NCBI GenBank assembly: GCA_009837355.1
Contig: VXTR01000087.1
Location: 1 to 64,000, forward strand
Origin: Chloroflexota bacterium
GTDB lineage: Bacteria > Chloroflexota > Dehalococcoidia > Lucifugimonadales > UBA3495
Direction of reading: 5' to 3'
Length of the DNA stretch: 64,000 nt
The notes beneath the pieces were generated by a model. That model worked only from the letters and a program-made list of their open reading frames with translations. It did no database searches and was not told where the DNA came from. Position numbers and translations under genes: made by a program. Positions 14,864-17,104 of the stretch are shown here, one piece after another (position 1 is the stretch's first letter; each line of letters starts with the position of its first letter).

Positions 14864-16267
14864 TTACGCAAACTGGAAGTCGCGGGATGCGGCGATGAGG
14901 GCCAGCATCACGCCGACGCGTTTTTCGGATTCGGCGGCGTCTGCGTCGGAGTCCCAGCGCAGTTCGCCGTCGCTGCGGGCCTGGTCGAGCAGTTCGGCGC
15001 GGGTGCCGTCGCCGACCTCCATGGGGCCGACCAGTTCCAGGCAAGCGTCCACCATGGCATCGGGGCCGAGCGGGCCACGCTGTCGCAGGTTGGACACGAT
15101 GGACTGTACGCCGGGGAGCGAAACGTCGCCCAGCAGGCCGGCGGCGAAGTTGACCCTCCGCACCAGCGCGCCGCCGTCAATCCACTCGCCGCCGGTGTGC
15201 CAGCTTTCCACGCTGGGCGGATTGAGCAGTTCCTGGCCCTGGTAGGCGCACTCGAAGGCGAGAGAATTGAAACCGGGACGGGGCTGGTTGAAGTTGCCGG
15301 CCAGCCGGGCCGTGCTGATGACCAGCTCGGCGGGACTCTTGACGCGGCTAAAGCGGGCCTGCTTGAAGAAGTCGGAGTTGAACAGGACGCGGAGCATGGC
15401 GCGGACGTCGCCGTCGGATTCGTCGTAGGCGGCCACCAGTTGGTCGATGGCGTCCGGGTCGTTGGGCGGCGTGATGTTCCAGCTGGGCACCTGGGGTTCG
15501 TCGGCCACGAAGAAGTTGTAGAGGTGGCGGGCGAGGAACCGGGCAGTGGCCGGCTGGTTGACCACGATGTCGATGATGTCCTGGCCGTCGAAGTTGCCGG
15601 TGTGGCCGAGGAAGGTTTTTTCCTCGTCGTCGTGGTCTTCGGGGCGGTACTCAAAGTTCCAGTAGAAGCGGCCCAGTGGGTTGCGGGGAATCTTGGGGCC
15701 GATGGTCCAGCCGGTAAAAGCGCGGCTGGCTTCCTTGATGTCTTCTTCGGAGTAGTTGCCCACACCCATGGAGAAAAGTTCCAGCAACTCGCGGCCCCAG
15801 TTCTCGTTGATGGCGCCCATGTGGTTGCCGTTGTTGTCCAGCCAGAAAATCATGGCCGGGTTCTGGGCCAGCTCCAGGAGGATGTCGCGGAACTTGCCCA
15901 TCCCGACGCGGCGGAACATGGCAATCTGCTGGGTGAGCTCGGGGGGGTTGTCCACCTTGGAGTTGCCGGTGGCAAAGAGCTGGTGCCAGAAGAGCGCCAT
16001 TTTCTCTTCCAGGGGACGCTGGGTATTGACCATGCGATAGACCCATTCCGCCTGGTTCAGGGGCGGGCCGAGGGCGCCCTCGTAGCCGGGCAGGTAGCGG
16101 TAGAGCAGGTCGTCGTCCACCGGGTCGAACCGCTCGGGGTTGAGCAGTTCTTCCACCACGGACTGGTACTCTCTGCCGGCTTTTTCCTGCAGCTCATCGT
16201 GGGTTGCGCCGAAGCCGGCCCGGCGCATGAGATGGCCCATCAATGCAATGTCTTCTCGATTCGCCAT
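14864..16267 (-). CDS. DUF1800 domain-containing protein
   Basis: This 467-aa protein matches the DUF1800 family. Family-type stretches are HLMRRAGFGATHDEL (about 10-25), EKMALFWHQLFATGNSKV, NENWGRELLELFSMGVGNYS and ASRAFTGWTIG. It lacks a signal peptide. ATG at 16267 follows GGAGGGGAG; a longer frame to 16315 has no site. It is the first gene of the DUF1800-DUF1501-NHL group, with gaps of 42 and 32 nt. A consensus promoter pointing toward it lies about 570 nt upstream (16838-16867), beyond a repeated element. The biochemical role is unknown. Confidence 0.88.
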   Translation of the reverse strand: MANREDIALMGHLMRRAGFGATHDELQEKAGREYQSVVEELLNPERFDPVDDDLLYRYLPGYEGALGPPLNQAEWVYRMVNTQRPLEEKMALFWHQLFATGNSKVDNPPELTQQIAMFRRVGMGKFRDILLELAQNPAMIFWLDNNGNHMGAINENWGRELLELFSMGVGNYSEEDIKEASRAFTGWTIGPKIPRNPLGRFYWNFEYRPEDHDDEEKTFLGHTGNFDGQDIIDIVVNQPATARFLARHLYNFFVADEPQVPSWNITPPNDPDAIDQLVAAYDESDGDVRAMLRVLFNSDFFKQARFSRVKSPAELVISTARLAGNFNQPRPGFNSLAFECAYQGQELLNPPSVESWHTGGEWIDGGALVRRVNFAAGLLGDVSLPGVQSIVSNLRQRGPLGPDAMVDACLELVGPMEVGDGTRAELLDQARSDGELRWDSDADAAESEKRVGVMLALIAASRDFQFA

Positions 16268-16437
16268 TGGTCTCCCCTCCTGTAACAAGGATTGGCCAGA
16301 ACAGAACGTATTCAAAGCTGATTACGGCAAGCGTATGGGGCTATGCTACGGAATGAGCAAGTAGGTGTCAAGGGAAGGGTGGTTCCGTCCGCCTGGAGCG
16401 GCGGGCGCGCTTTTGGATGCGATGGTTGGTTTTCGTC

Positions 16438-16745
16438 GGGGTTGCCTCCTGTGGTTGGTGGTTGGGTAGCCTGCCTGAGGTCGGTTTCCGGAATTCACTT
16501 TGGTCGTTGTCAGTCCCACGGCCGGGGGGTTCTTACGCACTTCCACATAGGTGTTTTTGTGACGGGGTCATTTCTCCGCCAATGGCCGCAGTGGTATCGC
16601 GCCGTGCCACACCTGGTCTTTTGCGACGGGGTCAGTTCTCCCGCCAATGGCAGCAGTGGCCGCTCCGGTGTCACGTCTGGTGTTTTGTGACGGGGTCATT
16701 TCCCCGCCAATGGCAGCAGTGACCGCTCCGTCGTGCGATTTAGGA
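16438..16745 (-). repeat. Repeated intergenic element, copy B
   Basis: Read on the minus strand, this stretch matches copy A at 1-205. From right to left it holds three 64-bp tandem units, then the conserved block with GGCCGTGGGACTGACAACGA and CCGACCTCAGGCAGGCTAC, then a Shine-Dalgarno-like AGGAGG at 16445-16450. The base triplet that is ATG in copy A is ACG here. The rest of the gene-free interval 16268-16891 holds no convincing gene. A strong minus-strand promoter lies just outside, at 16838-16867, reading into the element. Confidence 0.75.
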
Positions 16746-16752
16746 TTAGCTG
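16561..16752 (+). repeat. Three tandem 64-bp repeat units
   Basis: The core GACGGGGTCA recurs at 16561, 16625 and 16689, an exact 64-bp spacing. Each is followed by CCGCCAATGGC and GCAGTG. Units 1 and 2 are similar over the whole length, and unit 3 diverges in its last third. The core contains the small inverted repeat TGAC-GGG-GTCA. Related units with about 62-bp spacing occur at 1-100 in the opposite orientation. Confidence 0.8.
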
Positions 16753-16837
16753 ACTGGTTGGTGGCCGTTGACGACCGCAGTGATGTTGACCTCGTTGGCA
16801 GGCTGGGTGTGATGGATGATTTGCTAGCAGTGAGGCC

Positions 16838-16867
16838 ATTATAGAATGTATGTTCCCATTTTGTCAA
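16838..16867 (-). promoter_or_regulatory. Consensus sigma-70 promoter reading into the repeat element
   Basis: On the minus strand: TTGACA (16867-16862), an 18-nt spacer and TATAAT (16843-16838), both hexamers perfect. Transcription would start near 16831 and run through the 64-bp units. It would reach the DUF1800 gene after a leader of about 560 nt. It could instead serve a small RNA made from the repeat region. Confidence 0.7.
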
Positions 16868-16891
16868 GCCAAGGTTGTCAGGTGGCGGGGA

Positions 16892-17104
16892 TCATTCCGA
16901 CGCGGGCCGTTTCCAGTAGTAATAGACGAAGCAGTCCGTGGGGTTCTGGGGGATGAAGAGGGGCATGGCGGAGACCAACTCCCAGCCCAGCGCGCCCCGC
17001 TCGTTCAGGAAATCTTCGTCCACCGCGTCCATATTCATCGGGCCGTCGCCGAAGAAGCCGCCGGAGCGAATGGGCATCTTGTCAACCCGGTATTCCCACT
17101 TCAT
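16892..17104 (-). CDS. Small DUF4177-like protein (70 aa)
   Basis: The N-terminus MKWEYRVDKMP and the segment LNERGALGWELVSAMP match the pattern of DUF4177-type small proteins (W-E-Y...L...G..GWELV). No membrane segment or signal is visible. The ATG at 17104 lies just after the stop of the GMC oxidoreductase frame (17109), so it is probably the last gene of that operon. The function of such proteins is unknown. Confidence 0.65.
   Translation of the reverse strand: MKWEYRVDKMPIRSGGFFGDGPMNMDAVDEDFLNERGALGWELVSAMPLFIPQNPTDCFVYYYWKRPASE

Follow-up and report, generated by a model that had tools for sequence, protein, structure and literature searches.

A dispersed, pseudoknotted RNA with a LexA-type promoter box and its link to an HEPN-fold protein gene in Dehalococcoidia

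The window, by which we mean the whole stretch of 64,000 nucleotides analysed here, belongs to contig VXTR01000087.1 of a Chloroflexota bacterium (assembly GCA_009837355.1; class Dehalococcoidia). The interval between the end of a DUF4177-like gene (~16894) and the start codon of a DUF1800 gene (16267) is without a convincing gene, as the initial annotation of this DNA had stated. The same annotation had described three tandem units with 64-bp spacing, which we confirmed: copies start at 16555, 16619 and 16683, with exact steps of 64 and 64, and TRF run on the window reported a period of 64, 2.8 copies, 82% matches and a score of 242, far above that of every other TRF array in the window. Its further claim of a promoter with two perfect hexamers reading into the units also held, as TTGACA-N18-TATAAT at 16867-16838 on the minus strand agrees with the consensus at 12/12 positions; promoter-like sites numbered 2, as compared with 0.3 expected in shuffles. 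We found that positions 16445-16867 (minus strand) are one copy of a dispersed RNA family, the features of which are listed in Table 1.

Table 1. Positions of the RNA copy, its parts and its neighbours in the window.
Feature	Position	Strand	Basis or remark
-35 hexamer TTGACA	16862..16867	-	Conserved in the genome's 29 promoter regions
LexA-type box GAACATACATTC, filling the spacer up to the -10	16844..16855	-	One mismatch to GAACN4GTTC
-10 hexamer TATAAT	16838..16843	-	Promoter scan
Perfect palindrome TGCTAGCA close to the predicted transcription start	16822..16829	-	Other copies have other palindromes there
Structured RNA body, from AGCCUGCC (16797-16804) to GGCAGGCU (16468-16475)	16468..16804	-	Fold z -3.8; pairing, covariation
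Helix P2, 5' strand GGUCGU; partner ACGACC at 16502-16507	16771..16776	-	Family alignment and window fold
Pseudoknot strand ACGGCC; partner GGCCGU at 16518-16523	16763..16768	-	98.6% of cells paired
Helix P3, 5' strand GUCAG; partner CUGAC at 16509-16513	16750..16754	-	98.3% of cells paired
Helix P5, 5' strand CGCAC; partner GUGCG at 16536-16540; encloses the variable domain	16733..16737	-	98.3% of cells paired
Variable inner domain: three 64-nt units, a hairpin each	16550..16730	-	GACGGGGTCA core is a hairpin arm
AGGAGG in the single-stranded 3' tail	16445..16450	-	Precedes the HEPN start codon in complete relatives
DUF1800 promoter TTGACA-N17-TAGCAT, downstream of the inserted RNA	16343..16371	-	Kept upstream of 13/13 orthologues
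DUF1800 gene, neighbour outside the element	14867..16267	-	PF08811, E 1e-99
DUF4177-like gene, flanking the insertion on the opposite side	16894..17104	-	PF13783, E 9.8e-7
Second RNA copy, truncated by the contig end	32..213	+	3' half only

When the interval was used as a query against the window's genome, 45 aligned pieces were obtained on many contigs, the window's own included. The second copy in the window shows the GGCCGU hairpin at 116-138, followed by the closing stem. This genome holds about 30 copies overall, 29 of them with a readable promoter region, and we counted 24 sites of the exact 3' motif and 26 of the 5' motif in it; these counts rest on exact motifs in a fragmented assembly, several contigs of which end within RNA copies. 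On the minus strand of the window, the conserved block extends from the promoter through AGGAGG, and the flanks are unrelated among copies. One copy (L007/L026) was seen by eye just upstream of a 5S rRNA-like gene and beside a tRNA-like stretch. The exact 3' motif was present in 8 of the 14 genomes of the genus, with 0 control matches, and the named relatives that it retrieved are MAGs from Dehalococcoidia or Chloroflexi. The single-contig genome OY282456.1 (G007) supplied most of the listed loci and has 68 exact motif matches, many of its copies being near-identical and hence non-independent. Single pattern matches in two genomes of another genus (G064 and G065) equalled the reversed-pattern control and were attributed to chance, and nothing was found in viral contigs, searched with the pattern and with the protein, or in phage genomes, searched by tblastn. 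Two copies (L001 and L002) have bodies identical over 221 bp and different promoters, tails and flanks, which suggests gene conversion between copies.

The spacer of the promoter carries a conserved box. Among the 29 copies of the window's genome, GAACN4GTTC was exact in 23, had one mismatch in 5 and two in 1; the inner four letters took 18 forms and the preceding hexamer 26. In a larger set of 87 copies, with promoters located by hexamers alone, 71 copies had the box, with at most one mismatch, at an offset from the -10 hexamer between -15 and -11, and the 37 further offsets tested gave no match. Since many of the 87 copies are closely related, the counts from the window's genome are the stronger datum. 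An excerpt of PMC3323433 gives GAAC-N4-GTTC as the LexA box in Gram-positive bacteria. The window's genome has one LexA, as judged by Pfam PF01726. Its recA promoter has GAACGCACGTGC, with one mismatch, flush against a -10 hexamer TAATAT, which is the same position as in the RNA copies; upstream of lexA, only AAACAAACGTTG was found, with two mismatches to GAACN4GTTC. The promoter of the RNA is very probably under LexA control, judging from the form and position of the box. We found no description of a Chloroflexota LexA regulon in the open-licence papers searched.

A palindrome of at least 8 bp follows the -10 hexamer at the same place in 22 of the 29 copies, as compared with 8% of shuffled sequences. 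Its letters change from copy to copy and it stays palindromic, with TGCTAGCA, TGTGCACA, GTGTACAC, CGCTAGCG, ACACGTGT and CACGCGTG among the forms seen. One possibility is that the palindromic 5' end lets two RNAs pair with each other.

The RNA body is predicted to be closed by the stems AGCCUGCC/GGCAGGCU and GAGGUC/GACCUC, both included in the minimum-energy fold of the window strand (z -3.8). Inside them lie GGUCGU/ACGACC, GUCAG/CUGAC, CGCAC/GUGCG and a CCC/GGG hairpin, and ACGGCC forms a pseudoknot with GGCCGU in a loop. For the family alignment, 74 of 128 copies passed the extraction pattern and were reduced to 29 representatives, 24 of which were aligned. These 24 joined-arm sequences come from several species; 88.8% of their cells pair, as compared with 22.3-41.7% when the partners were slid by 1-3 columns, and the observed pairing and covariation scores were each reached by 0/500 shuffles. 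The measure of further pair types was not above shuffles (193/500), and the slid control at +3 gave 26 cells changed on both sides versus 19 for the native register. P2 is only 67.6% paired because its register differs between two subtypes. In an alignment-free test of the outer stems in 17 divergent representatives (L157, having no anchor, was left out), the native partner gave a mean of -34.4 kcal/mol versus -20.9 for swapped partners, and the native total was reached by 0/10000 permutations. With this strong support from pairing and covariation, the predicted transcript is a pseudoknotted RNA. Rfam gave no match across the window, none up to E 5 in 16300-16950 and none up to E 0.5 in eight HEPN loci (see below), and no prior description of this RNA was found in the open-licence papers searched; the RNA family is previously uncatalogued.

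The tandem units have a subordinate place in this structure. In the window's genome, 3 of the 17 complete copies contain three GACGGGGTCA units, 9 contain three units of another kind and 5 contain none. Because the middle of the RNA varies in this way among complete copies, the 64-bp repeat is an inner domain of one RNA subtype, and its core is not the conserved part of the family. Folded singly, one unit clearly exceeded shuffles in stability (z -2.8), and the other two did not (z 0.1 and -0.8). The initial annotation had proposed that the repeated TGAC-GGG-GTCA cores could bind a dimeric protein, in which case the 64-bp units would be sites for a dimeric regulator on DNA. The core is near-palindromic and present in three repeats, in line with this proposal. 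However, it is missing from 14 of the 17 complete copies, and its letters are the hairpin arms of the units in the RNA; we found no support for the proposal and consider it extremely improbable.

To place the window copy in its setting, we compared orthologous DUF1800 loci, which were found in 12 relatives. Among the 13 orthologues, the window's insertion is unique to the window's locus. The orthologue in G007 has an RNA copy in the opposite orientation, and in G006 and G008 no more than a few tens of bases separate the DUF4177 stop codon from the -35 hexamer of DUF1800. Since the site is empty in G006 and G008, the DUF1800 promoter occurs in all 13 loci and the G007 copy is independent, the window copy is a lineage-specific insertion between DUF4177 and the DUF1800 promoter. 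When the 14 genomes of the genus were searched for DUF1800 itself at E 1e-50, each gave 8 to 12 matches. The initial annotation had left two fates for the transcript carrying the repeats, a long leader of the DUF1800 operon or a separate non-coding RNA. The second is well supported by the compensatory stem changes and by a promoter conserved over dozens of copies. The first is weak, given that DUF1800 has its own promoter in 13/13 loci and that the insertion occurs in the window's orthologue only.

Transcription may still read through into DUF1800, as no terminator was recognised after the window's RNA copy. One explanation built on this is that the element is a mobile SOS promoter, whose read-through would bring its neighbour, DUF1800-DUF1501 in this case, into the SOS regulon. 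The lack of a terminator-like site after the window copy agrees with it, as does the orientation of the 8 tandem-context copies in the window's genome, all of which (8/8) are co-directed with their neighbours. In the relatives' loci, however, mostly from OY282456.1, tandem contexts had 18 copies in the same and 25 in the opposite orientation; gene orientation in both sets of counts rests on a home-made codon score. Moreover, DUF1800 retains its own promoter, and a bare promoter needs no conserved RNA. We therefore regard a mobile SOS promoter as quite improbable.

A few of the copies found through the 5' motif run past the tail into an open reading frame. These complete relatives have AAGGAG after the RNA and, next, an open reading frame for an HEPN-fold protein. 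The protein was present in 13/13 genus genomes examined and in 0/36 other genomes of the family. Pfam HEPN (PF05168) was matched by 8 of 27 aligned members, with a best E of 1.1e-5; single HEPN proteins searched against Pfam and PADLOC gave nothing reliable. The AlphaFold model was of middling quality (pLDDT 70.8, pTM 0.58). Its top Foldseek match was the HEPN protein 2hsb, with a probability of 1.00 and a TM-score by target of 0.74, and many HEPN entries were among the matches, with weak E-values of 0.17 and above. PDB sequence-profile matches to designed helical proteins and ribosome recycling factor were not taken as relatives. A class-wide profile search gave matches in 8/294 genomes at E 1e-5, of which the seven besides the window's were weak, limited to about the first 65-115 positions, and set aside as general HEPN similarity. 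Across the 27 members, no column pair conserves the R-x4-6-H motif of HEPN RNases; the pair that is conserved is R35-x3-H39 (25/27), which lies in helix 2, and R34-x4-H39 occurs in 12/27. Since R-x4-6-H is unconserved, the HEPN-fold protein may not be a nuclease.

After duplicate removal, 30 HEPN genes remained, and the 27 with at least 450 nt upstream were examined, 3 shorter ones being set aside. The RNA core was found upstream of 21/27, and 12/27 passed a strict test for the box plus the -10 hexamer. No RNA core was recognised upstream of 6/27, of which a looser search recovered one (L234). Distant members have different stem sequences, which still pair. This pairing of divergent stems is the strongest sign that the RNA and the HEPN protein belong together, and from these comparisons we have hardly any doubt that the RNA family is real and linked to HEPN. 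In addition, the form of the recA box, GAACN4GTGC (L248, L249), was also seen to precede several HEPN genes. Three clear HEPN genes were found in the window's genome, and in its fragmented assembly none of them was seen directly beside the RNA subtype of the solo copies, that is, of those without the protein gene. The window copy is without an HEPN open reading frame, and several solo copies of OY282456.1 keep remnants of one. No description of HEPN with LexA in Dehalococcoidia was found in the open-licence papers searched.

How the copies spread was addressed through their ends. In OY282456.1, the same RNA is carried within an IS-related element: many copies lie in units of ~560 bp bounded by the terminal inverted repeats GGYAGCGTTCCGTTTYAGGTGGT and by target duplications of 9 bp, and the ends of these units are shared by an element of 1076 bp that encodes a Mutator-type transposase (L276, G007:C1:79100-80400). 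The repeat end, with up to two mismatches, has 211 sites in OY282456.1; some of these sites are paired at a distance of 1076 bp, and one such pair flanks the Mutator-type transposase. One complete HEPN copy (L136) lies inside such a terminal-repeat unit, and another (L112) has no such ends nearby. These units and the transposase element, along with the empty site in G006 and G008, would suit a purely selfish element, namely a non-autonomous mobile unit whose damage-inducible promoter serves its own spread and which has no role for the host. However, neither terminal inverted repeats nor target duplications were found for the copies of the window's genome, and this genome has a single site of the repeat end, with 2 mismatches. 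There, the RNA thus spreads or persists independently of that transposon. A parasite, moreover, needs no conserved pairing with a pseudoknot, and we consider a purely selfish element improbable.

Another possible explanation is that the RNA is a cis-acting leader, an autoregulatory 5' leader of the HEPN mRNA that is bound by its own product or senses a ligand, and that the solo copies are functionless relics. The RNA adjoins the HEPN gene and both share AAGGAG, and the window copy is not followed by a recognised terminator, as a leader would have it. AGGAG is retained in most solo tails, and the ATG that would follow AGGAGG is replaced by ACG in about half of them, which looks relic-like; the purine stretch of the solo tails may also have a use beyond translation. 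However, in the window's genome the solo promoters, operators and palindromes are kept in form with varying letters, and this constancy of form despite letter change speaks for selection on the solo copies. The two bodies identical over 221 bp despite differing promoters and flanks also argue against relics. We hold the cis-acting leader to be unlikely, if still worth weighing.

We prefer the hypothesis that the window copy is a solo, LexA-controlled structured RNA, which would act as partner or antitoxin of the HEPN protein; for this reading as a whole, we see the balance as about even. It builds on what the sequences themselves hold, namely a promoter with an operator-like box, a pseudoknotted RNA, its dispersal in many copies and loci joining the RNA to an HEPN gene. 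According to this hypothesis, the window copy would be a non-coding RNA transcribed leftward. DNA damage would remove LexA, so that the RNA is made, together with the HEPN mRNA in complete loci. The folded RNA would then bind the HEPN protein directly, which we think rather probable, and would be its antitoxin or obligate partner, as RCd22 is for AbiF. That the RNA neutralises a toxic HEPN protein is plausible, if somewhat short of probable. The solo copies, having lost the protein gene, would add RNA in trans, and each SOS episode would yield far more RNA than HEPN mRNA. More tentatively, the family could represent a class of LexA-controlled RNA-HEPN ribonucleoproteins with an origin apart from ToxIN and AbiF-RCd22, having 30-70 solo RNA loci per chromosome, in which DNA damage floods the cell with the RNA partner or antitoxin and palindromic 5' ends let an RNA pair with a second copy. 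A damage-induced RNA in dozens of copies would be an unusual layout of an SOS response, and if RNA-HEPN had a second, unrelated lineage, the pairing of RNA with HEPN would seem to have arisen more than once.

HEPN-MNT pairs are type VII toxin-antitoxin systems. They have the HEPN fold in common with the present family, and HEPN-MNT toxins in the PDB were among the first Foldseek matches; unlike in HEPN-MNT, the partner here is an RNA and R-x4-6-H is unconserved. The SOS-induced toxin loci SymE-SymR and TisB-IstR, as described in excerpts, resemble the present loci in being small, LexA-controlled and equipped with an RNA component. In those systems, the RNA acts on the toxin mRNA (SymR being encoded opposite symE), whereas here the RNA is in the same transcript and on the same strand.

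The closest likeness is to systems with an RNA gene upstream of a protein gene. According to excerpts of PMC12373285, the RNA upstream of AbiF in C. difficile, RCd22, binds the HEPN-type toxin directly and thereby neutralises it, both in cis and in trans. AbiF-RCd22 and the present family both have a structured non-coding RNA directly upstream of an HEPN-fold gene, under one promoter, as far as those excerpts describe the former. The RNA body is ~340 nt with a long-range pseudoknot here, as compared with ~100-130 nt and two 33-35-nt motifs reported there for RCd22, and the LexA-type operator and the tens of solo RNA copies per genome also set the present family apart from AbiF-RCd22. The abiF motif (RF03085) was absent from 16300-16950 (up to E 5) and from the eight HEPN loci (up to E 0.5), and Abi_2 was not among the 15 families listed for the 27 HEPN-fold members. 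For these reasons, which concern both the RNA motif and the protein family, we do not assign the family to AbiF, though it may work like AbiF. Type III toxin-antitoxins (ToxIN, TenpIN, CptIN and AbiQ), in the same excerpts of PMC12373285, likewise place an RNA gene ahead of a protein gene, and tandem repeats and pseudoknots are frequent in that RNA. Unlike in type III, the protein here is HEPN-fold and not ToxN-like, no terminator was recognised between the RNA and the gene, and the repeats are missing in many copies, three units being present in 12 and none in 5 of the 17 complete copies of the window's genome. Taken together, these comparisons suggest that the family most likely works like AbiF-RCd22 or type III toxin-antitoxins and belongs to neither.
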